A DNA stretch of 45,063 nucleotides. Origin: Schlesneria sp. (lineage in GTDB: Bacteria > Planctomycetota > Planctomycetia > Planctomycetales > Planctomycetaceae). The stretch is taken from NCBI GenBank assembly GCA_028291515.1, contig JAQGHU010000059.1, forward strand, positions 1 through 45,063. The letters are read 5' to 3'. The translations under genes were made by a program, and so were the position numbers. Of this stretch, positions 4,078 through 19,661 are shown piece by piece; the first letter of the stretch is position 1, and each line of letters begins with the position of its first letter. The notes beneath the pieces were generated by a model. That model was not told the DNA's origin. It did not search any database and saw only the letters and a program-made list of their open reading frames with translations.

Positions 4078-4464
4078 ATGCGTGAACTGGGTTCTTCTCA
4101 GCCAACGGCTGTCGAATTGGAGATTCTGCGGATTCTCTGGGAGCTTGGGCCGAGCCCCGTGCGCACGGTGCATGCGCGGCTGACTGAGGTCAAAGGGACG
4201 AACTATTCGACCACCGTGAAGATGCTCTCGGTGATGCTGATTAAGGGGCTGGTGAAACGCGACGAGGATGCAACACCTCAAATCTACCGTGCTGCGCTGA
4301 CCCGCGAGCGCGCCGCCAAGAAGTTTCTTAGTGAACTGATTGAAAAAGTCTACGACGGATCCGCCATGAGTCTGGTACTCCAGGCTCTCTCAAGTGGCAA
4401 AGCGTCGCAGGAAGAGATTGAGGAAGCCCGTAAATTGCTCGACGAGATGGAGGACAAGTCATGA
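4078..4464 (+). CDS. BlaI/MecI/CopY-family transcriptional repressor
   Basis: Winged-helix DNA-binding repressor of the penicillinase-repressor family, which acts as a dimer and is inactivated by proteolysis triggered by its BlaR1 partner. The N-terminal half is the typical winged helix ('ELEILRILWELGPSPVRTVH', then 'NYSTTVKMLSVMLIKGLVKR'). The C-terminal helical part ('LVLQALSSGKASQEEIEEAR', then 'LLDEMEDK') is the dimerisation region. The ATG at 4078 is chosen because AAGG lies 7 bases upstream and the product (128 aa) then matches the family. An upstream in-frame GTG at 4024 would put the operator palindrome inside the coding region. The stop overlaps the next start by four bases (ATGA), so the pair is translationally coupled. 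Family certain; signal unknown. Confidence 0.9.
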   Translation: MRELGSSQPTAVELEILRILWELGPSPVRTVHARLTEVKGTNYSTTVKMLSVMLIKGLVKRDEDATPQIYRAALTRERAAKKFLSELIEKVYDGSAMSLVLQALSSGKASQEEIEEARKLLDEMEDKS

Positions 4465-7400
4465 ACGGTCTTCTGGAATTCGAGTCGCCGTTTTCGGACT
4501 CTTTTGTCCAACGGCTTGGTTGGCTCCTAATCCATTCGCTATGGCAATTCGGGATCGTTGCACTGCTGGCGGGAGTGGCTGTCCGCGTGATGCGGCCGCA
4601 TTCCGCGGCGATGCGATATGGTGTGCTGTTGATCGCGATGGCAGTGTCTGTTGTGGCTCCGCTGGCCACATGGATGCTTCAACAAGTCGACGCCTCCTCA
4701 CCTTTGGTGAACGATGTGACGTCAGTTCCCGAACGAAGTTCGAATGCTGTGTTTGAATCGGCGACTGACGCAGCTCAACTCGCAGATGTGACTCTATTGG
4801 CGAGCGATGCAGAAACCGAGGTTTCCACTCCAGATTTCACGAGATCGAACGCTGTTTCCGCAACGCTCCCAGCAATATCGCCACTTGCCTCAGACAACAT
4901 ACAAGCGACACCGAACTGGTCGGAACTCGCAGAGTCAGTCATGCGCCCCTGGATGGCTTGGATTGTGGCCGCATGGGGCTCGGGAGTTGCGTTGTGCTCC
5001 GCGCGGCCGCTGCTGGGGTGGCACACGCTGCAACGTCTGCGACGAGTGGGCATTTCGCCGGTGTCCGACGAAGTGCTGGCCTCGATGCGTCGGGTATCAG
5101 AGCGGCTTGGTGTACGTCGCGTTGTTCGCGTATTCCAATCGACGGTGGCACAAGTACCGGTCGTCGTCGGTTATATGCGGCCGGTGATCCTTCTACCGCT
5201 GAGCCTGATCACGAGTATCCCCGCCACGCAGTTGGAAGCGATTCTGGCTCACGAACTGGCTCATGTGGGGCGGCATGACTTTGTCGTGAATCTCTTACAG
5301 ACGCTGGTCGAAACGCTCTTCTTCTATCATCCTGCTGTCTGGTGGTTGTCGCGGCAAATCCGGGTCGAGCGTGAGCACTGCTGCGACGATCTGGTAGTGA
5401 AGCTGTTCGGCAACCGCGTTGAGTATGGCCGCGCGCTCGTAGCTGTCGAAGAGTTGCGTGGCCGGAAAACAGCGCTCGCACTTGGAGCGAGTGATGGCTC
5501 GCTCCTGTCACGCGTGCGCCGCATCGCCAGCGTCAGGCTGGACCACACCGTAACAGGTCCGAGCACCAGATGGCCAATCGCTCTCGCGGGCCTTGTCACG
5601 CTGGGTCTGGTGGTGACAATCGCATTTGCTGTGCCCTTCACATCGCTAGCGGAGGGTGAGACGCCGCTCGCCCAAGATAGTAGCGACACCGCTTCCGAGC
5701 GTCGGCCTTCCGAACCCACACTCGACGCGATCGACCGCCTCCCGAACTCGAACAATGGCAAGGGCAACGGTGGCAACAAACAAGACCTGCAATCGGGCGA
5801 ACAGCAGGGCCAGGAGACTTTCGCTGGTTCAGATTCACCGCGCGACAAGCCAGCCGCAAATCCTGATGATTCAATGCCCAACGAGGCCGCGGTTCCACCT
5901 GTAGCTGAGAGGCCAGTTGCGAAAGAGTTGGAGCCGTTTCAGGGAACGTGGCCGATGAGTCTTTGCGATTCTGAAGACAAGACGCTGTATGCCCCGCAGG
6001 AAGTGATCCGGCACTGGCGATGGACCATCAAGGGGGACGAAATCCTCTGGCAGCGCGAGCGTCAGGTGTGGAAGCTGACCTTCAAAGTGGATCCCACCAA
6101 ATCGCCGAAGGAGATCGACCTCACCTATCTCGACGGTCCGTTTAAGGGTGTCACGTGTCTGGGCATGTACGAATGGGGCGGAGTGGATGGCAAGTGTCTG
6201 AATATCTCGATTCAGGATCCGGGAGCAACGGTCGCGCGGCCGACGAGCATTTCGATGACGGGTGGCGGCCAGACCTCGCTCATCTTTCTAAATCCGATCG
6301 ACCACGAATATGAAGTCAGCCAGTTCCAGGGAACCTGGTCGGTCAAAGTTCAGTCCGATACGTGGCCGCGACCGTTCGGGAAGGAGAATGAACGTCGGTG
6401 GATGGTGAAGGGGAATGAGATTACCTGGACCAGCCTCGAGGGCGACGAAGTGAAGGCCTCGTTCACGATTGATTCCGCGAAGTCGCCCCAACAGATCGAC
6501 CTCACTTTCCTCAGCGGACCCGACAAAGGCAAAAAGTGTCTGGGAATCTATGACCAGGTCAAATTGGGAAAGAAACCACTTCAGCTTTGTCTGACTGATC
6601 CCGGATCGGAAGCCGCCAGGCCAACGGAATTCCAGTACGAAGCAAAATCAGGGCGGGTGTTGATTGGACTCGACCCAGTCGAGCAGCCTGTTCCGCAATC
6701 GGCGACTCGCCAAGAATCGAGTGTCGAGCCTGTTGCGGCACCGACCGCGCAGTCGATTGCGAGGGAGAAGGAACTCTTTCAGCGGGCGTGGAAGTTCAAC
6801 ACGTGCTGGTCCGAGACGTGGCGTGCCGAGACTGACGAGGTCAGAAAATGGCGATGGACTGTCAAAGGGGGCCAAATTGCCTGGGCCGGTCCGGGAAGCG
6901 AGGAATGGAAACTCTCGTTCACGATTGATCCATCGAAATCCCCAAAAGAAATCGACCTCACGTTTCTCGACGGCCCACACCAACGGGAGAGGTGTGCGGG
7001 GATCTATACGACCGAAGGAGAAGGCCAGGAAATGTGGCTCTGTCTGCAAGATCCCGGCGCGAAGACTGCGCGGCCCATCGAATTCCCCGGTAGCCTCGCG
7101 GATATCAAAAACAGTGGCCGGTCTCTGTTCATCCTGGAACCGGTCGAGCCGAATTCCATCGAGACAGAACTCGCCTCGCTCCAGGGATCCTGGTTGCTTT
7201 CAAACCTTCAGACTCAGGGTTGGCCGAAGCCGATCGGGAAAGGCCCCGATCCAACGGGGCAAGGAAGCAAGTGGGAATGGCTGATTGAAGGTACCGAGAT
7301 TATCTGGACCAGTCCCGAGAACGAAGAGATCAGGCTGTCGTTCACAATTGATCCCGCAAAGTCACCGAAGTGCTTCGACGTCACATTCCTCAGCGGTCCC

Positions 7401-10400
7401 GACAAGGGCAAGAAATGCCTTGGCTTGTACGAACGAAGCGGAATGCTCGGGAAGTCACTGTGGCTTTGCCTGACCGATCCCGATTCGAAGGCGGATCGGC
7501 CCGCGGACCTCTCGTTTTCTAGCTATCAAGGCCGATCCTTGATGATACTCCAACCGATCAAGCCCCCCGTTTCGCAAACATCCATCGACGTGAAACCGAG
7601 TGTCGATCCTGTTCCAGTCTCGGCCAAATCACCCATTTCGAAGGAGCTGGATTCGATTCAGGGATACTGGGCCGTCGATTCGCTTAAGTCTGAGTTCGCG
7701 CCGTTGAAAGTCTCGGACGTCGATGCGCGGAGATGGCGCTGGACGATCAAGGGGGACGAGATCATCTGGGGACGAGAGGGTCAGGAATGGAGACTGTCTG
7801 CGAAGCTCGATCCGTCCACGACGCCGAAGCAGATCGATTTCACGTTTCTCGACGGGCCGAACAAAGGCGAGACCTGTCTGGGCATTTATGAACGGAGCGG
7901 AGACGAAGGAAAGAAGTTGAGAATCCGGATCCAGGATCCCGGTGCGAAGGTGGGACGGCCGATCGATTTTGAGATGAAACAGGGAAGTCAGACTTCACTG
8001 CTTGCACTCCGTTCCATTCCCCCGATTGACCCCGTCAAGGAACTGGCGTCGTTTCAAGGAACGTGGTCTTGGGACTATTCTCAGCTCTGGACCTGGCCCC
8101 AACCGATCGGAGTGGGGACCGACAGCGACGGTCGCAAGAGTGAAAAGCGGTGGGTGATCGAGGGGAATCGAATCACCTGGGTCGGTCGGGATGGCCAGCG
8201 AGTTTACGTGAACTTCACGATTGATCCGTTCAAGGCACCCAAGCAGATCGAATTCACATTTCTCAACGGGCCGCACGGAGGGCACAAGTCCATTGGGATT
8301 TATGAATCAAAAGGCGATGACGATTATCGCGATCTTTGCATGACCGATCCCGGCACGGACGCGCCTCGCCCGACGGATATCTCCGCCGGAACCTTTAAGC
8401 AGCAGTCGATCATCGCCATTCATCGGGTCGCGCCGCCTGCAAAGCCATTCGCTGCGGACGAACTCAAACGACTCCAGGGCGTCTGGAAAATGACGCTCTG
8501 CGATTCGACACTGCGGACGTTTGGGGCCACTCAAAAAGAAATCGAGAACTGGCAGTGGACGATCAAAGGTGACGAAATCCTCTGGAGACGCGGAAGCGAT
8601 GAGTGGAGACTGAAGCTCGAAATTGCCCCGCCAAAGAGCCCGCGTGAGATGGACCTCACGTACCTCGCCGCGCCGTTCGAGTTGGACCTGACTTACCTCA
8701 CCGGGCCATTCAAGGGTGCGAAGTGCCGAGGCATCTTTGGTTGGGGCGGCGTGGACAGGCAGGATCTCATGATCGCCATTCAAGACCCCGGTTCGGACGC
8801 CCCGCGTCCGACGAAGTTCTACATGAACAGTGCCGTGAAGACCGGGCTGATGATCCTCAGTCCTAGCAAGCCGAGCGACATCGAGCGGGAGAACGCCGCG
8901 CTACAGGGAACGTGGACGCTCAGGAACTTTGACACTGGCAATTTTGACAGAAACAAAGATCCGAGTTCATGGCCGCTTCCCAGTGGCAAGGGACCCGATA
9001 AATCCGGCGAGGGGAGCGAACTCCGGTGGAGGATCACAGGGAATGAGATTTCCTGGACCAGCCGCTCCGGGCAGGAAATCAAGGCCTCCTTCACGATTGA
9101 TTCCCGGCAGCGTCCGAAGCAGATTGACCTCACGTTTTTGAGCGGTCCCGACAAGGGCAAGACGTGCCCCGGCATCTATCAGCGCGGCGATCTGGATGAG
9201 AACATCCTCTGGATTTGCCTGGCGGACCCGGATTCAACGAAGGTCCGACCGAAGGAGTTCTCTTATGGCTGGAACGAAGGCCGCTCCCTGCTTTCACTCT
9301 ACCCGTTCAAGGGGGCTGCCCCGAAAGTGTCGGCGATTTCAGCACCCAGCGACGCACCTTCTCCAGCAACACCTGAAAAATCCATCTCTAAGGAATTGGC
9401 GCCGTTCGACGGAACTTGGGCGGTCGATTCGCTCGACTCTGAGGCCGCGACGATCAAGATCAGCTATCCACAGCAGTCATGGCGATGGTCCATCAAGGGG
9501 AGTGAAGTCGTTTGGGGACGCGAGGGTCAGCAATTCAAACTCGCCGCGAAGCTCGACCCGTCCACTTCTCCCAAGCAAATTGACTTCACGTTTCTCGACG
9601 GCCCAAACAAAGGTGAGACTTGCCCGGGCATCTATGAATGGAGCGGAGACAATGGAAGGAACTTGAGAATCCGAATGCAGGATCCCAGTGCCAAGGTGGG
9701 ACGGCCGACGAATTTTGAGATGAAAAAGGGAAGTCAGACTTCGCTGATCGTGCTTCGTCCGATCCCGCCGGTCGATCCTGTGAAGGAACTGGCGTCGTTT
9801 CAAGGAACGTGGTGTTTCGACACTCTTCAGTTCCGAATCTGGCCCGAGCCGATTGGGGTCGGGATCGACGGTGACGGACGCACAAGCGAGCAGCGGATGG
9901 TGGTGAAGGGAAATCAAATCACTTGGACCGATCGGCAAGGCAAAGAAATTGCGGTCTCCTTCACAATTGATCCGTTTCAAACTCCCAAGCAGATCGACTT
10001 CACGTTCCTCATTGGTCCGCACAGGGGAGCAAAGTCTCTCGGAATTTACGAACCACAAATGGGCAACGACAATTTCCTTTGGCTTTGCATGACCAATCCC
10101 GGAACGAATGCCCCACGTCCGATTGATGTCTCCTTCTCAGGCCAGAAGCAGCAGTCGATGATCGGCATGTATCAGGTCGCGCCGCCTGAAAAACCATCGG
10201 CCGCGAAAGCACTGGAACGATTCCAAGGCCTCTGGAACGTGACTCTCTGCGATTCGGCGCTTAGAACGTATGGTGCCACTCAGCAGGAAGCTGAAAAGTG
10301 GAAATGGACAATCAAGGGTGATGAAGTTCTCTGGAGTCGGCAGGGCGAAGTCTGGAAGTTGAAGCTCGCCGTCGATCCTTCGAAGCGGCCCAGAGAGATA

Positions 10401-11321
10401 GACCTCACGTATCTCACCGGCCCGTTCCAGGGTGAAAAGTGCCTGGGAATGTACGAGTTTGGCGGCATCGATGAACAAAGTCTCCTGATCGCCATTCAAG
10501 ATCCAGGGGCAAAGGTTCCGCGACCGCAAGCCATTGAGATGAGCGGTAGCAGTCAGACGGGGTTCATCTTCCTTCGCCCAAACCAGCCAAGCGACTCTGA
10601 CCGGCAGATCGGTCAGTTCCAGGGCACCTGGACACTGAGGAACTATGACACAGGCAGGAACAATGACAAAAGTTCGTGGCCGATCCCCAAGGGAAAGGGC
10701 CCTGACAAGTCCGGCAACGGGAGCGAACTCCGGTGGGTCGTGAAGGGAAATGAAATCACCTGGACTAACAAGTCAGGTGAGGAAATCAAAGCTTCGTTGA
10801 CGACCAATCCAGAAAAGCGTCCGAAGCAGATTGATCTCACTTTTCTGACCGGCCCCGACCGGGGCGAGACGTGCCCCGGTATCTACCAGCACGGCGACTT
10901 AGATGAGAACATCCTGTGGCTCTGCCTGCCGGATCCGGGAACGAAGACCGCCCGACCAACGGAATTCTCATACCAATGGGGGGCAGGCCGCTCGTTGCTC
11001 TCGCTCTACCTGTTCGACACGTCAACGGCCCAAACATCCGCTGTTTCAAAGCCTACGTCAGGTGTCGAACCTGCTGACTTAACTCCCGAGAAGCGCCAAG
11101 CCGTCATCGAGACGGTTGCGGAAACGTTTCTGCGTTTTGGCGATGCCCGCTCCATCGGTACGAATGCGGATACGGAGTATGTGCGGCTAACTGACAAGGG
11201 TGAGGAGCCAGCCAAACGGACTGATCTGAAGGAAGGAGTCCACGTGCGTTATGAATTCGTATCAGCCACGAAGGGGGCCGCCAAAGTTGTCATTCTTCCC
11301 GCCAAACAGAACGCTGATTGA
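4461..11321 (+). CDS. Giant BlaR1-type M56 membrane metalloprotease with twelve TIGR03067 domains, 2286 aa
   Basis: Membrane zinc protease of the BlaR1/MecR1 family, expected to sense an envelope signal and inactivate the coupled BlaI. Hydrophobic helices lie near residues 15-35, 40-62 and 165-185. The zinc site is HELAH (264-268) with the downstream E305 in 'VEREHCCDD'. A fourth membrane helix lies near 370-392. In classical BlaR1 the part after the last helix is an external penicillin-binding sensor. Here it is a Ser/Asn/Gly-rich linker followed by twelve TIGR03067-like domains of about 130-165 residues (about 488-2185). Each runs 'FQGTW', 'W.WTIKGDEI.W', 'SFTIDP..SPK.IDLTFL.GP', 'C.GIY', 'L.DPG....RP'. 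A roughly 70-residue tail follows. No penicillin-binding motif is visible. The protein is about four times the length of ordinary BlaR1. Expressed from the blaI promoter with a 4-base overlap. Confidence 0.9.
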   Translation: MNGLLEFESPFSDSFVQRLGWLLIHSLWQFGIVALLAGVAVRVMRPHSAAMRYGVLLIAMAVSVVAPLATWMLQQVDASSPLVNDVTSVPERSSNAVFESATDAAQLADVTLLASDAETEVSTPDFTRSNAVSATLPAISPLASDNIQATPNWSELAESVMRPWMAWIVAAWGSGVALCSARPLLGWHTLQRLRRVGISPVSDEVLASMRRVSERLGVRRVVRVFQSTVAQVPVVVGYMRPVILLPLSLITSIPATQLEAILAHELAHVGRHDFVVNLLQTLVETLFFYHPAVWWLSRQIRVEREHCCDDLVVKLFGNRVEYGRALVAVEELRGRKTALALGASDGSLLSRVRRIASVRLDHTVTGPSTRWPIALAGLVTLGLVVTIAFAVPFTSLAEGETPLAQDSSDTASERRPSEPTLDAIDRLPNSNNGKGNGGNKQDLQSGEQQGQETFAGSDSPRDKPAANPDDSMPNEAAVPPVAERPVAKELEPFQGTWPMSLCDSEDKTLYAPQEVIRHWRWTIKGDEILWQRERQVWKLTFKVDPTKSPKEIDLTYLDGPFKGVTCLGMYEWGGVDGKCLNISIQDPGATVARPTSISMTGGGQTSLIFLNPIDHEYEVSQFQGTWSVKVQSDTWPRPFGKENERRWMVKGNEITWTSLEGDEVKASFTIDSAKSPQQIDLTFLSGPDKGKKCLGIYDQVKLGKKPLQLCLTDPGSEAARPTEFQYEAKSGRVLIGLDPVEQPVPQSATRQESSVEPVAAPTAQSIAREKELFQRAWKFNTCWSETWRAETDEVRKWRWTVKGGQIAWAGPGSEEWKLSFTIDPSKSPKEIDLTFLDGPHQRERCAGIYTTEGEGQEMWLCLQDPGAKTARPIEFPGSLADIKNSGRSLFILEPVEPNSIETELASLQGSWLLSNLQTQGWPKPIGKGPDPTGQGSKWEWLIEGTEIIWTSPENEEIRLSFTIDPAKSPKCFDVTFLSGPDKGKKCLGLYERSGMLGKSLWLCLTDPDSKADRPADLSFSSYQGRSLMILQPIKPPVSQTSIDVKPSVDPVPVSAKSPISKELDSIQGYWAVDSLKSEFAPLKVSDVDARRWRWTIKGDEIIWGREGQEWRLSAKLDPSTTPKQIDFTFLDGPNKGETCLGIYERSGDEGKKLRIRIQDPGAKVGRPIDFEMKQGSQTSLLALRSIPPIDPVKELASFQGTWSWDYSQLWTWPQPIGVGTDSDGRKSEKRWVIEGNRITWVGRDGQRVYVNFTIDPFKAPKQIEFTFLNGPHGGHKSIGIYESKGDDDYRDLCMTDPGTDAPRPTDISAGTFKQQSIIAIHRVAPPAKPFAADELKRLQGVWKMTLCDSTLRTFGATQKEIENWQWTIKGDEILWRRGSDEWRLKLEIAPPKSPREMDLTYLAAPFELDLTYLTGPFKGAKCRGIFGWGGVDRQDLMIAIQDPGSDAPRPTKFYMNSAVKTGLMILSPSKPSDIERENAALQGTWTLRNFDTGNFDRNKDPSSWPLPSGKGPDKSGEGSELRWRITGNEISWTSRSGQEIKASFTIDSRQRPKQIDLTFLSGPDKGKTCPGIYQRGDLDENILWICLADPDSTKVRPKEFSYGWNEGRSLLSLYPFKGAAPKVSAISAPSDAPSPATPEKSISKELAPFDGTWAVDSLDSEAATIKISYPQQSWRWSIKGSEVVWGREGQQFKLAAKLDPSTSPKQIDFTFLDGPNKGETCPGIYEWSGDNGRNLRIRMQDPSAKVGRPTNFEMKKGSQTSLIVLRPIPPVDPVKELASFQGTWCFDTLQFRIWPEPIGVGIDGDGRTSEQRMVVKGNQITWTDRQGKEIAVSFTIDPFQTPKQIDFTFLIGPHRGAKSLGIYEPQMGNDNFLWLCMTNPGTNAPRPIDVSFSGQKQQSMIGMYQVAPPEKPSAAKALERFQGLWNVTLCDSALRTYGATQQEAEKWKWTIKGDEVLWSRQGEVWKLKLAVDPSKRPREIDLTYLTGPFQGEKCLGMYEFGGIDEQSLLIAIQDPGAKVPRPQAIEMSGSSQTGFIFLRPNQPSDSDRQIGQFQGTWTLRNYDTGRNNDKSSWPIPKGKGPDKSGNGSELRWVVKGNEITWTNKSGEEIKASLTTNPEKRPKQIDLTFLTGPDRGETCPGIYQHGDLDENILWLCLPDPGTKTARPTEFSYQWGAGRSLLSLYLFDTSTAQTSAVSKPTSGVEPADLTPEKRQAVIETVAETFLRFGDARSIGTNADTEYVRLTDKGEEPAKRTDLKEGVHVRYEFVSATKGAAKVVILPAKQNAD
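5923..11010 (+). repeat. Twelve tandem TIGR03067-domain units
   Basis: The 'FQGTW'-type core of each unit starts near 5937, 6324, 6777, 7178, 7656, 8052, 8472, 8901, 9404, 9798, 10220 and 10616. Odd units carry a short N-terminal part ('CDSxxxT' or 'VDSLxS'). Even units carry a 'W..PxGKG/GVG' insert. The array is therefore six A-B pairs. Units 5-8 and 9-12 match in order and in sub-type, suggesting a recent four-unit block duplication of about 1.75 kb. Confidence 0.85.
8646..8711 (+). repeat. 33-bp tandem duplication inside unit 7
   Basis: 8646-8678 and 8679-8711 encode 'EMDLTYLAAPF' and 'ELDLTYLTGPF' back to back, repeating one beta-strand and turn of the domain. All other units carry this segment once. 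The copies already differ at several bases, so the event is not very recent. Confidence 0.75.
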
Positions 11322-11658: not shown

Positions 11659-13047
11659 TCACTTGGTTCTCTGCGCGTGTAGCAGCGTCTCGACGGCGCG
11701 ATACCGCGACATCACACCTGGCTGGGGATACAGGCCTCCTGCCAGAATCAGCGCGGCGAGCAGCAGTACGGCAAATCGTTCTCTGGTCTGGATTTGTAGC
11801 GAAACACCCGATGCGTACCGATTTCCCGTAAACAGGATGAAATAAGTTTTCATAAATGCGACACCGTTGAGTGCGCCGGCGACCACGACAGCGATGCCAA
11901 TATAGGGATAGGCGTCTACGGTGCCGTGAATCAGCAGTTCGGTTCCGACAAACCCGACGGTCCCAGGAAATCCGATGCTGGCCAGTCCCGTTAGCATGAA
12001 ACATATTGCTAATTCAGGTGTGTGATCGTACAGGCCGCGAAAGCGTACCAGCGATAATCGCCCGCAGCGGGCTTCCAGCGCACGCAGAGTCAGTCCAAAT
12101 CCACCGAGTGCCATTCCCACCGACAGCCAGACACTCAGTGCTCCCGTCAGCGCAGTCGGTGTCGAAATTTCCAGCCCCACCAATACCAGTGCGGAGTGGC
12201 TGAGAAACAGATAGCAAAAGAACCGTCGTACGTCATGTTGCACCAAGGCCATTCCAGCGGCGTAGACTGCCATAAATAGTGATGCCAGCCCCACACTGTA
12301 CAACGCACTTTCGGATGCGATCGGCAGAACCAGCCGCACTGCGGCATAGGCGCCCGTGAGCGGCACGACAAACAACAGTGCCGTACCGAAGGTCGCATGC
12401 TCGAACAGATCAGTGACCCAGCAGTGGAATGGCGCGATACCACTGCGGACGAGGATTGCCCCAAACAATGGAACGATCGCCCAGAGAGTGTGATTCCCGT
12501 CGAGCCCTTCGAATTCGGCAACCGTCCAACCCACCACCAATAGGAGAACAAACAGCGCCATATGACCGACATAGACTCGCGTACGTTTACCCCGCTGACG
12601 GAGTTCGAGGTAGGGCGGGATCGCCTCCAGAGCCATCAGGCCGATGATCCCGCAGGGTTCCTTGCAGCTGAACAGGGATAGTAAAATGGCCTCGGAGAAC
12701 AGCGTTCGGGCAAACGAAGTTCGGGACACCTTGGTCTGGAGAGTTGCGACCGCAGTCAGGAAGTACAACAGTGCGGCCAACGGCAGCAGAGGGACGCTGA
12801 ATCTGTCAATCATCAGGAGTTCACGTCCGGTCAGTCGCGACAGGAGATGAGCTGGATCATCGGCTTCATCCGCATTTAGGTATTCGAAGTCCAGCCAGGT
12901 GCCCACCGTACAGATCAACGCCGCACCAGAAACCAGCAGCGCCCATTTGCGCGCCAGATGCGGATTCCGCAGCCGACCGACACAACATCCACCAACCAGG
13001 CAAATCAGGATCGCCAATTCTAGCCACGGAAGATGCAAATCGGCCAT
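11659..13047 (-). CDS. dabB: DabB: proton-conducting NuoL/MrpA-like subunit of the DAB bicarbonate-accumulation complex
   Basis: Polytopic membrane protein (462 aa, about a dozen hydrophobic helices) of the NADH-dehydrogenase/Mrp antiporter-like family. Partnered with DabA it is thought to couple cation flux to CO2 hydration, giving net uptake of inorganic carbon. The family signature around 'GIAPFHCWVTDLFEHATFG' corresponds to the conserved PFHxWLPD segment of NuoL/M/N proteins; 'LVQHDVRRFFCYLFLSHSAL' matches the next conserved helix, and 'GLASIGFPGTVGFVGTELLI' a later one. ATG 13047 is preferred over an upstream in-frame start at 13095 because AAGGA lies just upstream with good spacing and the first membrane helix then begins near the N-terminus. 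It follows dabA by 91 bp on the same strand. The identity rests strongly on that neighbour. Confidence 0.88.
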   Translation of the reverse strand: MADLHLPWLELAILICLVGGCCVGRLRNPHLARKWALLVSGAALICTVGTWLDFEYLNADEADDPAHLLSRLTGRELLMIDRFSVPLLPLAALLYFLTAVATLQTKVSRTSFARTLFSEAILLSLFSCKEPCGIIGLMALEAIPPYLELRQRGKRTRVYVGHMALFVLLLVVGWTVAEFEGLDGNHTLWAIVPLFGAILVRSGIAPFHCWVTDLFEHATFGTALLFVVPLTGAYAAVRLVLPIASESALYSVGLASLFMAVYAAGMALVQHDVRRFFCYLFLSHSALVLVGLEISTPTALTGALSVWLSVGMALGGFGLTLRALEARCGRLSLVRFRGLYDHTPELAICFMLTGLASIGFPGTVGFVGTELLIHGTVDAYPYIGIAVVVAGALNGVAFMKTYFILFTGNRYASGVSLQIQTRERFAVLLLAALILAGGLYPQPGVMSRYRAVETLLHAQRTK

Positions 13048-13138
13048 CAGAATTCCTTCAGCGACTCGCGTACTCCCACTGCCATTCCTTGCCAACGCAA
13101 ACGACCAGCCAATCCCGAGATCACATGGACAGTGACCG

Positions 13139-16100
13139 CTACTCCTCGATCAGCGCGAACGGCAAGTGATCACGCGAACCGCAATACCAGTCAGCCGATG
13201 ATGTCGCTTTGGGGAGTTCAACAGTACTGGCCTGATAAACATGAAACTCGCCGTTTTGATAGACTTGTATTTGATCCGAATCAGGGTCGAGGACCGCCAG
13301 TTGGGCCCAACCGTTTCCCAGAATTCTGCCGATCACGGGATTGCGTTGCATGATCTTGTGCATTCCTTCTGGAGTCGTCTCGATGATAAACAGGCATCGT
13401 ACCGGTTCGTGGATTTCCGTACTCTGAATGGGTAAGCCACAACGAAGGTCGCTGGACGCTCCATCCATGACTCCCAACAGTGAAGTGACATTGTGAGGCA
13501 ATTTGGTGCCGCACCCCCATCCCAGCGAGTCGATTGCCGACAAGTAATACTGCATGCTGATCCCGGAGCAGACTGGAATTACTGCGCTGAGGATTCGCTC
13601 CAGAATGGTGTATTCGAAATCGTCGTGTTTGGGATCATAGGATTGAAGGAAGGACCGCCGATCCAGATAGAGACTCAACGACCGAGAACGCCGTCCAACG
13701 ATGCACATCGCATTCGAGGCATTGCCGAACTCGGGGCGAGTCTGCGCCAGATCCTCTGAGCGATCTTTGACATGTTGATGCGCCTGTTCGGGCGTGATGT
13801 TCAGTGACGCCGAGTAGAACCGACGACATCGTTCATGGGCATTGTGCTGGCAGGCCATCTCCATCGCGCGTCTCGCAGCGGCGAAATCATCAGCATGCGA
13901 TTTGGGTAACTGGTCCAAATCGTAGAAGCTCACAGTATCATCGCAGGTATTGTGCAAGCCCCCGATGAAGAACGTGTCGTCTGGCACGGACAATCCGCGA
14001 TTCGCCAGCAACCCTCGAACCTCCGAACTGTTGAGCATTGCGGCCAGCGCCCTTCCATTCGGCCCGCCCGGGTTTCCGGTACATGCTCCACAGTCATAGG
14101 TCGACTTGTGCGGGTTGTTCTGGCAGGTGGATCCGTGGCCGATAAAGAAAACCAGGCGCGAGAACTTCGAGGTCAACCCGATGTCACGCAGCAAGACCTC
14201 GCTGATCCCAGCCATTTCCTCGGTCGTGAATCCGGTTTCTCCAAAATTGGGTCCCGCTGTCGGTAGCTTCCGTTCGAGCCGCAACCGAGTCGCCATTGAT
14301 GGAGCCACGAAGCCGCTCAGAGTTCGTCGGAGTTTTGCGGTGAATTGAGGAAACAGAACGCGCATGACGAGCGGAATTGAAGCGAGCGTGCCGAGTCCAG
14401 CAGACAGGACAGCGCCGGACGCAAAGCTGCGGCTGTCGAGATGAACCTGATGAGCGGCGAGACCGAGCACACGACGCGAACGCGTTCGAAACTCGTGGAC
14501 TTGCACTTGCTCCGAGGTCTCCTCGACGACCCAGTGCTTAGGACGAATGACAACCGGGCTTTGCGAGGAAAAGTGAGCTTCTGCAACTCCTCGAAAATAC
14601 ATGGGAACACCAAAAAAGCCTGCGGTGCCGAAGGTTTCGATGTCCGGCGATTGCTCTTCGAGATGTCTGCGAAACGATTCTTCGCGCGTGTCGAGACAAA
14701 ACACGAACTGCAGCCGTGGCACTGCAGCGACTTTCGCGGAGCATCGATTCTTAATCGAAATCGCATCCAGCGTTCTGATCAACAGTCGGTGTTCATACGC
14801 GAGTTGGAATATTCGCCGGCGCTCCGGCGAAGGAAAATCCTCGATTTCCGCAATCAGAGTTTCCCAGCCGTGCTTGGTGAGTTGACTGAGAGCCGGCGGA
14901 GTCCAACCCATGACTTGGGCAAGTTGGAAGACGTAAAAGACGCGCCGCTCGACTGATGAGAATGATCGCGCGTTCGCGCGTTCCAAGAGGACCGACCGCG
15001 ATCCGGCCAACGACGCTTCCATGGGCACTGCTGATTTCTGACACAGATATCTGAGCGCACATCGTTCCAACAGCAATCGCACGGCAACAAATTCGATCAA
15101 ACTTCCCGGTGCAGCAGGTCTCGCCACCCGATCCGGGCGAACCTCCATCTGCCAGATCATGCCAGCCCACCCTCTTAGAGCTAATACTGTGGCGTTGACA
15201 ACATCCGCCCATTGATCCTCCGGGACGCCCAGATCCTCCAGCGATTCCAGTATCAATTGAGAGGGTGTCGTGTTTTCCGTTACAAGTCTGGAGAGCTCTT
15301 TAGCCAACAGATGCATCCACGGTTCTGGTCGCCTGCCTGCGGACTGATACAGGGTACGGAATGCGTTCCAAAAGCCGCGTTCACGATCCGGCAACGCCCA
15401 ATCGGAGACTCCCTGATCTGTGAACGCGGCACAAAATCGAATCAGGACAGGATGAACGAGCAAATCGCTGTCCTGCCCCGTGGCCGACAACAGGAGATCA
15501 CGATAACGGCGGAACGGTGATGTCGTCGGAAGCGGCAATTCGACCTGCTTCACGCCTTCGCGGCAAACGAGCCAAAGCAAGTGCAGCGAGAACGTTTCCC
15601 AGATCCTCTGATCCCAACCGGCGGGTGGCCCATTGCCAAATCGCGCAAGCAGATCCGTGACGAGTTGAAAGTCCGGTCGCCTGGCCATCGGTTCATCGCC
15701 TGAATGACCATCCGTATGGCCGACAAATTCTTGCATGACCCAATGTCGCGTCGCTTCCAGAAACCCCTCGCGAATTGTTGCCGGTACTTCTTTGCTGAAG
15801 CGAGTGAGTGCGTCAGTTTCTGCAATGAACCAACGCAATTCTTCCGCAGGAGCAGAATGGAGCGAATATTGCAACATGGCCAGACGCACTTCAAATCGCG
15901 TCCCAGAAGGAGCAATCGGTGTCGGCGCGGAATTCGCCAGTGCTGCGCTCAGAACAGTGCGGACATCGTCCAATGCGATCCGGCCAGCCGCGAGCTTCTC
16001 GCGATACACGTCTTTGGGCCAGTAGGGCCGACATCCGAACAGTTCCGCCCCCTTCGCCAGACCAACTTCAAACGGGAGATCCTCAAAGGCCTGCAGGGGA

Positions 16101-16252
16101 TTGAGGAACGCAAATCCAGTCAGGGGCCCTTGGGCAGGTAACAGCGTTCCGGCGCGGGCGACGAGGGACTCTACTCTTTGCAGTGTTTCGCTCATTTCCG
16201 AAGAGCGGCTCATTGAGGAGATATCTGTGTTCGACGGAGCAGTTGCCGTCAT
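13139..16252 (-). CDS. dabA: DabA: DUF2309 / UPF0753 carbonic-anhydrase-like subunit of the DAB complex
   Basis: Large peripheral subunit (1037 aa) of the DAB energy-coupled carbon-uptake complex, with a beta-carbonic-anhydrase-like zinc site. The proposed ligands are visible in order: C519 and D521 in 'FCLDTREESFRRH', H706 in 'FIGHGSTCQ', and C721 in 'YDCGACTG'. The C-x-D pair and the 15-residue H-to-C spacing match what is reported for Halothiobacillus DabA (C351, D353, H524, C539, from memory). ATG 16252 is chosen over GTG 16273 because GAGG lies 8 bases upstream. The gene precedes dabB, an order consistent with one transcript. No carboxysome, Rubisco or soluble carbonic-anhydrase gene is nearby, so in a probably heterotrophic host it may feed anaplerotic carboxylation; that is inference. 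Confidence 0.93.
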   Translation of the reverse strand: MTATAPSNTDISSMSRSSEMSETLQRVESLVARAGTLLPAQGPLTGFAFLNPLQAFEDLPFEVGLAKGAELFGCRPYWPKDVYREKLAAGRIALDDVRTVLSAALANSAPTPIAPSGTRFEVRLAMLQYSLHSAPAEELRWFIAETDALTRFSKEVPATIREGFLEATRHWVMQEFVGHTDGHSGDEPMARRPDFQLVTDLLARFGNGPPAGWDQRIWETFSLHLLWLVCREGVKQVELPLPTTSPFRRYRDLLLSATGQDSDLLVHPVLIRFCAAFTDQGVSDWALPDRERGFWNAFRTLYQSAGRRPEPWMHLLAKELSRLVTENTTPSQLILESLEDLGVPEDQWADVVNATVLALRGWAGMIWQMEVRPDRVARPAAPGSLIEFVAVRLLLERCALRYLCQKSAVPMEASLAGSRSVLLERANARSFSSVERRVFYVFQLAQVMGWTPPALSQLTKHGWETLIAEIEDFPSPERRRIFQLAYEHRLLIRTLDAISIKNRCSAKVAAVPRLQFVFCLDTREESFRRHLEEQSPDIETFGTAGFFGVPMYFRGVAEAHFSSQSPVVIRPKHWVVEETSEQVQVHEFRTRSRRVLGLAAHQVHLDSRSFASGAVLSAGLGTLASIPLVMRVLFPQFTAKLRRTLSGFVAPSMATRLRLERKLPTAGPNFGETGFTTEEMAGISEVLLRDIGLTSKFSRLVFFIGHGSTCQNNPHKSTYDCGACTGNPGGPNGRALAAMLNSSEVRGLLANRGLSVPDDTFFIGGLHNTCDDTVSFYDLDQLPKSHADDFAAARRAMEMACQHNAHERCRRFYSASLNITPEQAHQHVKDRSEDLAQTRPEFGNASNAMCIVGRRSRSLSLYLDRRSFLQSYDPKHDDFEYTILERILSAVIPVCSGISMQYYLSAIDSLGWGCGTKLPHNVTSLLGVMDGASSDLRCGLPIQSTEIHEPVRCLFIIETTPEGMHKIMQRNPVIGRILGNGWAQLAVLDPDSDQIQVYQNGEFHVYQASTVELPKATSSADWYCGSRDHLPFALIEE

Positions 16253-16430
16253 TTCTATAGCCTCAAAAAACACAATCGTGCCTTAGTTCTCCTCGCGCGT
16301 AACACCAGCAAGATCTTTGAGCGTGTCGGCACGGGAAGAGAGTTTGGCTGGAAACAGACAGCCTCGGTCAATAAGACTCCTCGGCCAAACCCGCACATTC
16401 GTCGCTGGCGACCGTAGCCAGCTGTGCGAT

Positions 16431-16658
16431 TCAACCCGCACAGTACGGTCCGCCGTACGCCGCATCCTGAGACGGAATTACGGTGGCTTGCCTGGCTTCC
16501 ACTTCCATGCGCCGAGCGTAAGACAAAGAGATCCAAGCAACGCGTGCCAGATAACAGAGGATACCGATCGCCAGCACGCTCGCTGCAAGTTGGTCCAAGA
16601 CCAAACCTGGTGCACTGAAAAGATTACTTACCGGATTGATTGTCGGCTCTGAAAACAT
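16431..16658 (-). CDS. Small single-span membrane protein upstream of dabA, 75 aa
   Basis: Not a recognised family. The product has an N-terminal soluble part, one clear hydrophobic helix ('LAASVLAIGILCYLARVAWI', about residues 25-44), then a basic patch and a soluble tail. The ATG at 16658 has AAGGA 4-5 bases upstream, better than for chance ORFs in this region. It lies on the dabA strand, 178 bp upstream of dabA, so it could be a small accessory subunit of the DAB complex; small extra genes are known in some dab operons. The 16253-16430 gap to dabA shows nothing clear. Confidence 0.45.
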   Translation of the reverse strand: MFSEPTINPVSNLFSAPGLVLDQLAASVLAIGILCYLARVAWISLSYARRMEVEARQATVIPSQDAAYGGPYCAG

Positions 16659-16971
16659 ACGATCCTTTTCAATCGAAATACCAGGCAGGTGCTGTCACGG
16701 TTCGGCGAACCTTGCTTCGTAGCTTGCGTGCCAAACAAGACCCGCGGCGATTATTTGCCAATATCGACCAACAAGACGCACAGGTTGAACGATCTGCCAG
16801 CTAATCCCTCGTCCAGATCGCCCCTCATCGGGCAAAGCCAATCGCCAGCAGCTTGCCTGCTGCGAATGACGAACTCCTCAGAGTCAGCCTGGTCATCCCT
16901 GGTGAATTGGCCTAGATGATTTCGGCTGAGTCAATTCTCAGATGTTTGCTTTTACTCAATCATTCCTGGAG

Positions 16972-17004
16972 ATTATCTAAAGTAATATGCGAATGTTCGA
17001 ATAT
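16972..17004 (-). promoter_or_regulatory. Candidate ArsR operator and leftward promoter of the dab operon
   Basis: 16985-17004 is the near-perfect palindrome ATATnCGAA-N2-TTCGnATAT. Immediately to the left, read on the minus strand, is GATAAT (16977-16972), a plausible -10. The palindrome would then cover the -35 region, a blocking position; no good -35 hexamer is seen. It lies in an AT-rich patch about 310 bp upstream of the small membrane ORF. A related site precedes arsR (17420-17439, 15 of 20 bases identical). Confidence 0.5.
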
Positions 17005-17169
17005 ATGAGCACTACTGTCACGTGTCAACCGCATAAGATTTCGTCATCCTCTCTCCAGCGCACGCTGTGGAATCCATTGGATTGCTCAAAGAGCGGCGGA
17101 AAGTGCATGTGGTCAGGATGACGCAACCCTTCAAGTGGGGTGGTGTATTTTTCAGAAGAGAATCCGACA

Positions 17170-17397
17170 ATGCCGACTCCGACGCGCAATGTTTATAGGC
17201 TCTTTTCGATATTTGCCGTACAACTTGTCGCATTCGGCCTGTTTGAGTGGTTCTCGCAACGTCGAGAGCAGAGCTGGCAGCAGCGTGGAGTGAAGACTTC
17301 GAAGCCGAGGAACAGCGAATCGCCAGGCACACGGAAGGCGATGGAACAGAAAACACAGGTAGCCAGCTTCCCGCCAGATTGCCTTACTTGTCCTTAA
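17170..17397 (+). CDS. Doubtful small ORF with one membrane helix
   Basis: From ATG 17170 the frame gives about 75 residues beginning 'MPTPTRNVYRLFSIFAVQLV', a possible membrane helix, followed by a basic hydrophilic tail. A GTG at 17140 is an alternative start. The ribosome-binding site is weak, and a 112-residue ORF overlaps on the other strand without any motif. It sits between the two operator-like palindromes. It may be real or chance. Confidence 0.22.
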   Translation: MPTPTRNVYRLFSIFAVQLVAFGLFEWFSQRREQSWQQRGVKTSKPRNSESPGTRKAMEQKTQVASFPPDCLTCP

Positions 17398-17439
17398 CAA
17401 TCACCGAGAGATAATCCAAGTATTCGACAATTCGAATAT
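17388..17439 (+). promoter_or_regulatory. arsR-sbtA promoter with ArsR-like operator
   Basis: TTGTCC (17388-17393), a 16-bp spacer and GATAAT (17410-17415) form a readable promoter. The operator-like element at 17420-17439 (GTATTCGACA-ATTCGAATAT) covers the predicted start point. Inner arms ATTCGA and TCGAAT are complementary around CAAT. It shares the TTCGAATAT half-site with the palindrome on the dab side. The arsR start follows 48 bp later. Confidence 0.5.
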
Positions 17440-17487
17440 GCTTGGTCCATCTCAACACTGACGGTAAACGATCACGCGGAGCTTCCG

Positions 17488-17859
17488 ATGCAAGATAACC
17501 TTCGTCGCTTCAAGGCGGAAATCTTCCAGGCACTGGCGCACCCGACGCGCATCGCCATCGTTGAGCTGTTGCGTGATGACGGGGAAACCGCGGTGACCGC
17601 AGTTTATGAGCGATTGGAACTGGAGCAGGCCAATGTTTCGCAACATCTGGCTGTCCTGCGTTCCAAGCACATTGTTGTCGCCAGAAAAGACGGCAATCAG
17701 GTCTTCTACTCGCTGCGTGATCGAGCCCTGGGAAAAGTGCTCGACCTGATGCGCCAATTCTTCCATGCACATCTGGAGGAATCCCTGGCCCTGCTCGAAG
17801 ACATGCGAACGAAAGAGCCGCGAACGAAGAAAACCCCCGCGGGAGGAAGAAAGCCATGA
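17488..17859 (+). CDS. ArsR/SmtB-family transcriptional repressor without cysteines
   Basis: Winged-helix dimeric repressor (123 aa). The core is canonical: 'FQALAHPTRIAIVELLRD', recognition helix 'EQANVSQHLAVLRSKHIVVA', and wing 'RKDGNQVFYSLRD'. There is no cysteine anywhere, and the ELCVCDL-type metal-binding helix of ArsR is replaced by 'ETAVTAVYERL'. A metal- or persulfide-cysteine switch is therefore excluded. The C-terminal helix carries 'FFHAHLEE', which does not keep the SmtB alpha-5 ligand spacing. The start ATG 17488 follows a GGAG. The stop overlaps the sbtA start by four bases (ATGA), so the regulator is co-translated with the transporter. It probably autoregulates and, judging from the paired palindromes, may also control dabA-dabB; the effector is unknown. 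Confidence 0.9.
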   Translation: MQDNLRRFKAEIFQALAHPTRIAIVELLRDDGETAVTAVYERLELEQANVSQHLAVLRSKHIVVARKDGNQVFYSLRDRALGKVLDLMRQFFHAHLEESLALLEDMRTKEPRTKKTPAGGRKP

Positions 17860-19661
17860 GATTGACCATGACCGATTTCTCGTCGTTTCGTCCTCGCCCC
17901 GCGGGCAATTGGAGACACGTGCTCTCGTGCCTCGTCTGCATTTCGGTGCTTTCGATCGTGGTCATGGATCTGTTCGCAGCACCCAACGAGCCAGCGGCAG
18001 CAAAGAAACCGCCAGGGCGAGCGTTGAAGATCGTGTCGATCGAGGGCGGCAAACCAAAGCTGACGGTCACAGATGGTGATAACCAGCAAGTCCTGAAACT
18101 TGCTGCCAATGCCAAAGTGCTGCTCAATGGCGCCCCTGCCACCGTCGACGACATTCTCCTGGGTGATTCGGTGGCCGTTGAAGTCGACGATCAAGGTCGC
18201 ATTACCAGCGTCGACGCCACGCGACTTGAGACTGGAATTGTGTTGAATGTTGACCAGGGACATGTCGACATCACGACCGATTACACCGACAAGCAGCAAT
18301 TTCAGTTGACCGACGACGCGCAAGTCTTCCTCAACGGCAATCTGGTGAAAGTTGTAGACTTGCGACGGGGTGACCACGCGCAGATTTCCCCTAATCCGGA
18401 TGGTCAGGCCCGGAAGATCGATGTGACGCGGCACAGCCTGGTGGCCGAGTTCTGGGATAACTTCCGGCACAATCTGTTCAAGCCGCTGCTCTTGTTCTTT
18501 TACATGGGATTCGCGGTTCCCCTGCTGAAGATCGACTTCGAGTTCCCGCGTGTGATGTACCAGGGGCTCACCATCTATCTGCTGATCTCGATCGGCTGGC
18601 ACGGCGGAGAAGAACTCGCCGAGCTTTCGGGTGGGATGCTGCGCGAAGCTCTGATGTTTATGATCGTTGGTTTCATCACCAATTTCCTGATCGGAATTCT
18701 AGCCTACGGAATACTACGCAAGTTCATCGCGAAAATGCGCAGAATCGATGCCGCGACCGTCGCCGCGTACTACGGTTCCGACTCGGCGGGAACATTCGTC
18801 ACCTGTCTCGGCGTCTTGGCAACCTCCGGCATCAAGTACGCTCCGTACATGCCAGTCATGCTGGCGATCATGGAAATTCCCGGCTGCCTCGTGGGGCTTT
18901 GGCTTGCGTCACGCCTACGTCGAACCGGAATGGACGGCTCAGGAAACATGCCAGACGAGCCCGGTTTCAACCGCGCGACAGGATCTCTCCTGGCGGCCGA
19001 AGTTGATATTGCGGACGGTCATGAACCCAAGACCGCGCAGCAGAAGGCGATCGATCGAGAGGCTCGCATGGCGCTCGAAAACAAAGAGGAACCGGACGAA
19101 AACAGTGTGAGCCACAAGCCGGCTGGAGCTTTTAACGTCGAACTGCTTCGCGAGGTATTCCTGAACCCCGGTCTGTTCTTGTTATTCGGGGGCATCCTGA
19201 TCGGCTTCGCCAGCCGCCTGCAGGGACACAAAGTGACAGATGCCGATGACAGCCTGTTTGTCACGTTGTTTCAAGGGCTGCTGTGCTTGTTCCTGCTGGA
19301 GATGGGAATGGCGGCGTCCAGGCGTCTGATGGATCTCAAGACGGCAGGTTGGCGTTTTATTCTGTTCGGGCTGCTCGCTCCGAATATTTTCGCGACGGCA
19401 GGAATCTGCATCGCACACGCCTTCGCCATGGTCACGGGTTCTCCACTTCAACTCGGAACCTATGCCCTCTTCGCCGTCCTGTGCGCTGCCGCTTCGTACA
19501 TCGCCGTTCCGGCGATTCAGCGGCTGGCGATTCCCGAAGCCAGCCCGACGCTGCCGTTGGCCGCCTCGCTCGGGTTGACGTTTTCCTACAATGTGACGAT
19601 CGGAATTCCGATCTATATCATCATCGCGCAGATCGTCATTATGGCATTCCCGGTCGGATGA
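17856..19661 (+). CDS. sbtA: SbtA-type sodium-dependent bicarbonate symporter with an exported N-terminal extension
   Basis: Inner-membrane bicarbonate uptake protein (601 aa; ordinary SbtA is about 370). The transporter core begins near residue 205 with 'KPLLLFFYMGFAVPLLKIDF' (K209), and includes 'YYGSDSAGTFVTCLGVL' (Y305), the Ile-Glu-Pro-Gly helix 'AIMEIPGCLVGLWLA', and the inverted-repeat half ending 'ASLGLTFSYNVTIGIPIYII'. The loop between the two halves (about 355-430) is long and charged, where cyanobacterial SbtA meets the PII-like SbtB; no sbtB is seen here. The N-terminus has a signal-like helix (24-41) followed by two similar beta-rich units (about 52-127 and 128-200), each with 'V.LNG....VDD/VVDL..GD' and ending 'VDATR' or 'IDVTR'. 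SbtA has an external N-terminus, so this extension should be periplasmic. ATGA overlap with arsR. Confidence 0.93.
   Translation: MRLTMTDFSSFRPRPAGNWRHVLSCLVCISVLSIVVMDLFAAPNEPAAAKKPPGRALKIVSIEGGKPKLTVTDGDNQQVLKLAANAKVLLNGAPATVDDILLGDSVAVEVDDQGRITSVDATRLETGIVLNVDQGHVDITTDYTDKQQFQLTDDAQVFLNGNLVKVVDLRRGDHAQISPNPDGQARKIDVTRHSLVAEFWDNFRHNLFKPLLLFFYMGFAVPLLKIDFEFPRVMYQGLTIYLLISIGWHGGEELAELSGGMLREALMFMIVGFITNFLIGILAYGILRKFIAKMRRIDAATVAAYYGSDSAGTFVTCLGVLATSGIKYAPYMPVMLAIMEIPGCLVGLWLASRLRRTGMDGSGNMPDEPGFNRATGSLLAAEVDIADGHEPKTAQQKAIDREARMALENKEEPDENSVSHKPAGAFNVELLREVFLNPGLFLLFGGILIGFASRLQGHKVTDADDSLFVTLFQGLLCLFLLEMGMAASRRLMDLKTAGWRFILFGLLAPNIFATAGICIAHAFAMVTGSPLQLGTYALFAVLCAAASYIAVPAIQRLAIPEASPTLPLAASLGLTFSYNVTIGIPIYIIIAQIVIMAFPVG

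Follow-up and report, generated by a model that had tools for sequence, protein, structure and literature searches.

The closest described relative of the system studied here is DAB2 of Halothiobacillus neapolitanus, a complex of DabA2 and DabB2 with a solved structure (9rd0). A structural model of how DAB couples protons to CO2 hydration is only recent, and one glutamate of the DabA finger is essential in it; the relevant passages of PMC13144422 state that replacement of Glu444 abolishes DAB2 activity and that DAB2 given Glu at position 151 loses half of its growth yield. MpsAB of Staphylococcus aureus is a member of the DabA/DabB family that likewise serves a heterotroph for bicarbonate or CO2 supply, and the SbtA–SbtB system of Synechocystis (7cye, 7cyf) is the closest described counterpart of the second transporter treated below. 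Here, we analysed a 45,063-nucleotide stretch of DNA from Schlesneria sp. (contig JAQGHU010000059.1, hereafter the window), which carries arsR and sbtA together with dabA and a gene of the antiporter type. We rate slightly above even the chance that this island is an inorganic-carbon regulon in which a split-channel vectorial carbonic anhydrase, composed of DabA and two membrane subunits (B1 and B2), feeds a heterotroph; this reading is drawn from sequence.

The window is the whole of contig C20 of a genome labelled G000, which has 8,587,171 bases and is 100% complete; below, G numbers denote genomes, L numbers fetched regions and C numbers contigs of the comparison set. The genes smX (a working name), dabA and dabB2 are transcribed divergently from arsR and sbtA, both groups starting from a shared gap:

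11659–13047, minus strand: dabB2, NuoM-like second membrane subunit (PF00361, E 1.2e-23; NuoM models and chains match best in sequence and predicted fold)
13139–16273, minus strand: dabA of the long class, 1044 aa (PF10070, E 7.5e-229, model positions 2–746 of 747)
16431–16658, minus strand: smX, 75 aa, adjoining each of the five complete DabA genes fetched from the window's subclade
16985–17004, no strand: operator-like palindrome 1 (1 mismatch), set 327 nt away from the start of smX
17420–17439, no strand: operator-like palindrome 2 (2 mismatches), lying 49 nt 5' of arsR
17488–17859, plus strand: arsR, cysteine-free regulator of the ArsR/SmtB family (PF01022/PF12840, NCBIfam HTH_metalloreg)
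17856–19661, plus strand: sbtA, 601 aa (Sbt_1, E 7.3e-97 over residues 210–592)
18024–18428, plus strand: segment of sbtA encoding two extracytoplasmic beta domains, as predicted from structure modelling

The dabB2 frame is open to 13095, and the start conserved in its family, 13047, is probably the real one. The dabA gene was read from a GTG at 16273, with an in-frame ATG also at 16252, and arsR overlaps sbtA by 4 nt. No riboswitch or other known RNA was found in the window at Rfam gathering scores. An earlier, sequence-only reading of the window had named DabA, ArsR and SbtA, and the profile matches listed above bear these names out; its gene list missed smX and both palindromes.

That reading had also named a dabB and, with it, a plain two-subunit DabAB, which the evidence does not support. 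The PF00361 core is present in the 11659–13047 protein, but the protein is NuoM-like: its 34 sequence matches in the PDB include no DabB chain, and NuoM/NdhD chains are the best match to its predicted fold (mean pLDDT 83.7; TM-score to query 0.88), the 50 fold matches listed including no DabB. B1 carries PF00361 and PF00662 and matches the solved DabB of 9rd0, as does the unlinked B1 of this genome, whereas B2 carries PF00361 only and matches NuoM. The window protein is 59% identical to the B2 of G204 and 75% to a copy on contig C21, is orthologous to the third gene of dabA–B1–B2 operons and keeps the family-invariant columns. Judged by its sequence and modelled fold, it is a NuoM-like second subunit, B2, and not a canonical DabB. 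The canonical NuoL-like partner is absent beside the window dabA. The sole close B1 of the genome lies within a B1–B2 pair on C21, where no dabA was found in the 15.7 kb read (L127). A B1–B2 pair likewise stands apart from dabA in G195, G267 and G299, and G267 has an additional dabA–B1 pair.

DabA was present in 18 of 20 fetched regions and a B gene lay close by in 17 of the 18 (not L082). The order was dabA–B1–B2 in 16 regions (L072–L077, L080, L083–L091), and L078 holds dabA–B1 without B2. In three genomes, a short DabA (745–841 aa) is accompanied by one DabB and no B2. At E 1e-60, B2 was found in 157 of 297 class genomes, and dabA–B1–B2 also occurs in named genomes of the heterotrophs Singulisphaera, Aquisphaera and Bythopirellula. 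A scan of named genomes gave 218 B2 loci, of which the best 80 were kept and are the basis of the locus figures that follow; every record among them is named as a planctomycete or just as 'bacterium'. A script places B1 next to B2 in 75 of them, and a reading of L283 by eye makes it 76; three loci are cut by contig ends and L270 lacks B1; dabA is nearby in 62, cut by a contig end in 14 and absent in 4. An in-line SulP lies within 2.5 kb in 32 of these loci and sbtA in 4, neither is present in 37 and 7 end too early. The B2 system is easily overlooked because several sources label B2 'NADH-quinone oxidoreductase subunit M'. The same gene set as dabA, B1, B2 and SulP of these planctomycete relatives was described in 2017 as the COGNAT 'clade C' neighbourhood, ybcC–nuoL–nuoM–sulfate permease (PMC5700660); in the passages of that paper concerned with it, the function is unassigned and SbtA, ArsR, an operator, smX and a planctomycete are not named. 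The window itself differs from it in lacking nuoL and SulP. That neighbourhood aside, no planctomycete three-subunit DAB was found in the open-access literature.

The C-x-D...H-x14-C zinc-ligand pattern that the sequence-only reading saw in DabA is confirmed by alignment to the solved Halothiobacillus DabA2: C526, D528, R530, H713 and C728 (H-x14-C) of the window protein align with C351, D353, R355, H524 and C539. The zinc ligands C351, H524 and C539 and the dyad D353 and R355 are kept in all 21 planctomycete DabA proteins aligned to 9rd0. A PF10070 subunit with a Cys2His zinc site and an Asp–Arg dyad is shared with DAB2, as is a B1 that matches its DabB. In contrast, the window DabA is about 175 residues longer and lacks the finger Glu444, and an extra NuoM-like B2 and smX are present. 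Glu444 is kept in 3/3 short DabA proteins and in 0/18 others (two of the 18, from G105 and G271, are of a further type). The genome has three DabA proteins, the one in the window, one on C39 (66% identical to it) and one on C18 (51%), and DabA was found in 198 of 297 class genomes. The C18 copy (L010, 6567–9716) lies between a flagellar-type cluster and a large inverse-autotransporter-like gene, both named by eye, with no B subunit in the region.

Compared with the DabB of 9rd0, B1 has Glu at position 151 in 13/13 sequences (Ile in DAB2) and keeps R182, D185, K235, S256 and K310 in 13/13, H339 in 12 and H343 in 8; H260 is replaced by Tyr and K347 by Arg, both in 13/13. Its C-terminus is divergent, and its profile matches reach over the first part of NuoL only. 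In B2, a Glu stands one place past the NuoM E407 column in 35/35 sequences (E370 from the 13047 start). These residue patterns in DabA, B1 and B2 suggest a relay. In canonical DAB, it is the finger glutamate that completes the proton path on the periplasmic side; that glutamate is gone here. B1 would retain a NuoL-like cytoplasmic half-path together with a gating glutamate missing from DAB2. Completion of the path would fall to the invariant B2 glutamate near E407. With B2 and a B1 supplied by the other locus as its membrane base, DabA would then hydrate CO2 to bicarbonate in one direction, driven by protons.

The window ArsR has the winged helix of the ArsR/SmtB family and no cysteine, and neither do three aligned relatives; the alpha3N-type cysteine metal ligands of the family are missing. 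At the place of a putative alpha5 His/Asp site, the sequence reads His-x-His-x2-Glu in three of the four aligned proteins and Glu-x-His-x2-Glu in the fourth. A search at E 1e-20 found orthologs in 4 of 15 congeneric genomes, and one at E 1e-25 gave 25 copies spread over 24 of 397 class genomes. In 16 of these 24 genomes, arsR adjoins dab, sbtA, SulP or carbonic-anhydrase genes: dabA in G000, G195, G199, G102 and G250, sbtA in G000 and G267, SulP in nine (G172, G070, G253, G323, G026, G235, G265, G016, G169) and beta-carbonic anhydrase in G042. Six of the nine SulP assignments were checked by Pfam; those in G323, G235 and G265 come from BLAST at 25–26% identity.

The palindrome, ATATTCGAA-N2-TTCGAATAT, was first spotted by eye in G000, G195, G267 and L224. 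Two copies lie in the arsR/dabA gap of the window, where 0.02 would be expected by chance and 0 of 100 shuffles reached two. When up to 3 mismatches are allowed, 17 of the 25 arsR copies have it in the 350 nt before the gene, including 13 of the 21 copies that played no part in its discovery, and none was found in 177 control loci (2,439,344 bases, some overlapping). In G172, it stands upstream of a sulP–arsR pair. The 15 congeneric genomes contain 37 sites with at most 3 mismatches, compared with 3 for the reversed pattern. At no more than 2 mismatches, these genomes hold eight sites: five adjoin the genes under study, two fall within an unrelated open reading frame and one is uninspected; the two in the window are the only such sites in G000. 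The cysteine-free ArsR looks like a dedicated inorganic-carbon regulator, which we propose to be a repressor, and the palindrome is a putative operator that tracks this arsR across genomes.

Other neighbours of the same ArsR type were also seen. In four genomes of family f1, a 477-aa antiporter-like protein lies directly 3' of it (L343, L344, L345, L347; PF00361 in L343). Clusters with NuoL-, NuoH- or hydrogenase-large-subunit-like proteins lie near it in L335 (524–7081) and L339 (656–6508), named by eye save for PF00361 in L339, and a similar cluster, also named by eye, stands beside dabA in L090 (9287–12567). These three clusters, some with an HTH-PTS-IIA-like protein, are possibly a further proton-translocating carbon system.

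The window SbtA shares the Sbt_1 core and the fold of Synechocystis SbtA. Its model (mean pLDDT 70.5) returned SbtA chains as the best five fold matches, with TM-scores to target of 0.81–0.86 for 7cye and 7cyf. Ahead of the core (about residues 197–593) lie an anchor or signal helix (18–40) and two six-stranded beta domains (57–122 and 125–191) that are predicted to be exported and set the protein apart from the Synechocystis one; block pLDDT is 45–81 in the first and 79–86 in the second. About 195 residues precede the core in the window, compared with about 110–120 in operon-linked relatives such as L072. No Pfam entry matched the beta domains above cut-off, and the fold search gave only partial, OB-like matches (E about 0.003 or worse). 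TM2 of SbtA starts inside (PMC8352866), so TM1 starts outside and the beta domains should be extracytoplasmic. The sequence-only reading held that the core motifs of SbtA are kept; the Sbt_1 core is present, and of the four docked bicarbonate ligands of Synechocystis SbtA, S114 and S324 are retained and Y140 and S327 are changed. The same two positions are retained and the same two lost in the SbtA of this genome that is paired with SbtB. In Synechocystis SbtA is paired with SbtB; by BLAST, no SbtB gene was found in the island. Three Sbt_1 proteins are encoded in the genome. The second and third are on C41 (L008, 4722–6335 and 10270–11556), the former with an SbtB-like PII gene downstream.

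SbtA was found in 99 of 297 class genomes. The sequence-only reading suggested looking for conserved dabAB–arsR–sbtA synteny; at least 10 genomes from 4 genera (g1, g61, g79, g85) show a dab–sbtA linkage, namely in the window, L072–L077, L153, L205 and L206. In L153 the contig stops short of any dabA, and the DabA of L205 and L206 is of the further type. This number is not a rate because L072–L077 were picked for known linkage; short-type SbtA loci were mostly left out. Most SbtA genes are unlinked to dab, linkage being seen in 3 of 60 regions of one SbtA sample. NuoL-like proteins of 681–688 aa, 23–26% identical to DabB, lie near SbtA in L195 (10134–12200, G024) and L197 (3912–5957, G048) and were not counted as linkage. 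A C-terminal PII domain was present in two of six tested SulP proteins beside B2 loci; these permease–PII fusions adjoin the DAB operons of L260 (10383–12371) and L235 (11549–13543).

The smX protein has one hydrophobic stretch (judged by eye), a conserved C-terminus GPYCAG and no Pfam match. Its gene lies ahead of dabA in the window, in G195 and in G267 (C81) and is divergent from dabA on C39 of G000 and C32 of G267; these five DabA genes are all the whole ones fetched that are at least 64% identical to the window DabA. A DabA fragment at 77% identity in G299 is cut by the contig end. A search of 5.8 billion proteins returned 23 smX proteins, including the window's own. The DAB1 of H. neapolitanus has an extra small membrane protein, hneap_0908 (described in passages of PMC13144422), to which smX is likened in kind only. 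Elsewhere in the window (4461–11321, plus strand), an unusually long BlaR1-type M56 peptidase of 2286 aa is encoded (E 5.9e-29), in which the peptidase part is followed by many degenerate repeats of about 120 residues (seen by eye), one pair being 52% identical.

No RuBisCO was found in the genome, in a search that covered neither carboxysome genes nor other routes of fixation. The sole PF00016 match scores highest as a 2,3-diketo-5-methylthiopentyl-1-phosphate (MtnW) enolase, at 210 bits, below the model cut-off of 409. It reads KDDH at the position of the RuBisCO motif KDDE and bears a cupin domain. The fused gene lies on C80 (L007, 1144–2739) with an asparagine-synthetase-like gene, named by eye, adjacent to it. 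RuBisCO elsewhere in the genome would have spoken for an ordinary autotroph, and the scan rejects RuBisCO-based autotrophy. The idea of DAB as a stand-in for a missing carbonic anhydrase was also rejected for this genome, which has five beta-carbonic-anhydrase (PF00484) matches; S. aureus, the host of MpsAB, is reported to be without carbonic anhydrase (PMC8567241). With three DabA, three SbtA and five beta-carbonic-anhydrase matches, DAB is not the only likely source of bicarbonate. The joint, apparently regulated inorganic-carbon island that the sequence-only reading proposed for a planctomycete agrees with the gene and palindrome layout and with a genome in which no RuBisCO was detected. 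DAB and SbtA, which it called best known from autotrophs, are in themselves no surprise in a heterotroph: passages of PMC13144422 and PMC10880623 describe DAC complexes as widespread in heterotrophs, and DabA and SbtA have the class counts given above.

In the regulon that we favour, ArsR would repress both operons and be released by an inorganic-carbon (or linked) signal rather than by a thiol-bound metal; SbtA would import bicarbonate with Na+, and this bicarbonate, with that formed by DabA–B1–B2, would supply the carboxylases of a heterotroph. Several observations weigh against it. The island has no B1 and the two other DabA genes of the genome have no B gene within about 5–6 kb, so assembly of the complex across loci is an assumption. 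The finger alignment is poor, Glu444 facing Leu by phmmer and Ala by MAFFT, with no acidic residue in the window stretch. Glu151 of B1 cuts both ways because the same residue halved the growth yield of DAB2. B2 is changed at the NuoM pumping residues K234 (to Arg), K265 (to Met, Leu, Ile or Thr) and E407, all in 35/35, so B2 may be a mere scaffold. Two of the four docked ligands of SbtA are changed, and the five beta-carbonic-anhydrase matches may make DAB dispensable. As to the regulator, a search of 350 nt with 3 mismatches allowed gives no site for 8 of the 25 arsR copies, G000 has four more sites of 3 mismatches in other places that are uninspected, and in six of the 24 arsR genomes the only neighbours are antiporter-type genes with PF00361: an antiporter-like protein in G061, G081, G322 and G354 (PF00361 in the one tested) and NuoL-like clusters in G205 and G007. 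Of the other two, G222 has an smX-like gene and G288 is ambiguous at a contig end.

Some of these points would suit other explanations. The 11659–13047 gene could act alone as DabB in an ordinary two-subunit DabAB beside SbtA, with B1 serving another DabA; the adjacency of dabA and dabB2, the lack of another B gene in the island, the intact zinc site and the invariant columns of dabB2 fit this. We think it unlikely, as both the sequence and the predicted fold of the protein match NuoM instead of DabB, the three NuoM residues are changed throughout and B1 stands beside B2 in 75 of the 80 best loci, with three more cut by contig ends. We give about the same low probability to an ion-translocating or pH-homeostasis machine in which SbtA carries another anion and carbon uptake is not the point. 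Its antiporter-type subunits, the six genomes with PF00361-type neighbours alone and the changed SbtA ligands are consistent with it; ion translocation was proposed by the COGNAT authors (in passages of PMC5700660) and sodium use has been argued for MpsAB. The carbonic-anhydrase-type zinc site is nevertheless intact, the same regulator type adjoins a beta-carbonic anhydrase in G042, and DAC, SbtA and SulP form a known bicarbonate toolkit (passages of PMC10880623).

A little less probable still is that dabA–dabB2 is the leftover of a broken operon and that only arsR–sbtA and the C21 B1–B2 pair still matter. The absence of dabB1 here and the separate B1–B2 pairs of G195, G267 and G299 would be explained by this, but both frames are open, the invariant columns and the zinc site are kept, dabA has smX and a copy of the operator with it, and G195 has arsR, operator, smX and dabA together. 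Autotrophy by another route, with the island as CO2-concentrating machinery, would account for three DabA, three SbtA and an SbtB-like protein, and only the RuBisCO route was searched; we regard it as very improbable, given that no RuBisCO was found and that dabA–B1–B2 also occurs in the heterotrophs Singulisphaera, Aquisphaera and Bythopirellula.

DAC in heterotrophs and the dabA–nuoL–nuoM–SulP neighbourhood (2017; passages of PMC5700660) are already known. A search of the open-access literature found no earlier account of the residue swap, the range of the system among planctomycetes, the variant form of SbtA or the ArsR regulon, and no regulator joining ArsR, SulP and bicarbonate is described in the titles and abstract starts of the open-access matches listed. 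We advance, as a tentative proposal with somewhat less than even chances, that planctomycetes have a split-channel proton-driven carbonic anhydrase, in which the channel glutamate has passed to a NuoM-like subunit, and a cysteine-free ArsR that switches DAB, SbtA, SulP and carbonic anhydrase through one operator. A widespread natural variant that lacks the finger glutamate and has an added subunit would allow a direct test of the DAB coupling model, and the ArsR–operator pairing would offer heterotrophs a simple inorganic-carbon switch as well as a tool for finding carbon-uptake genes.

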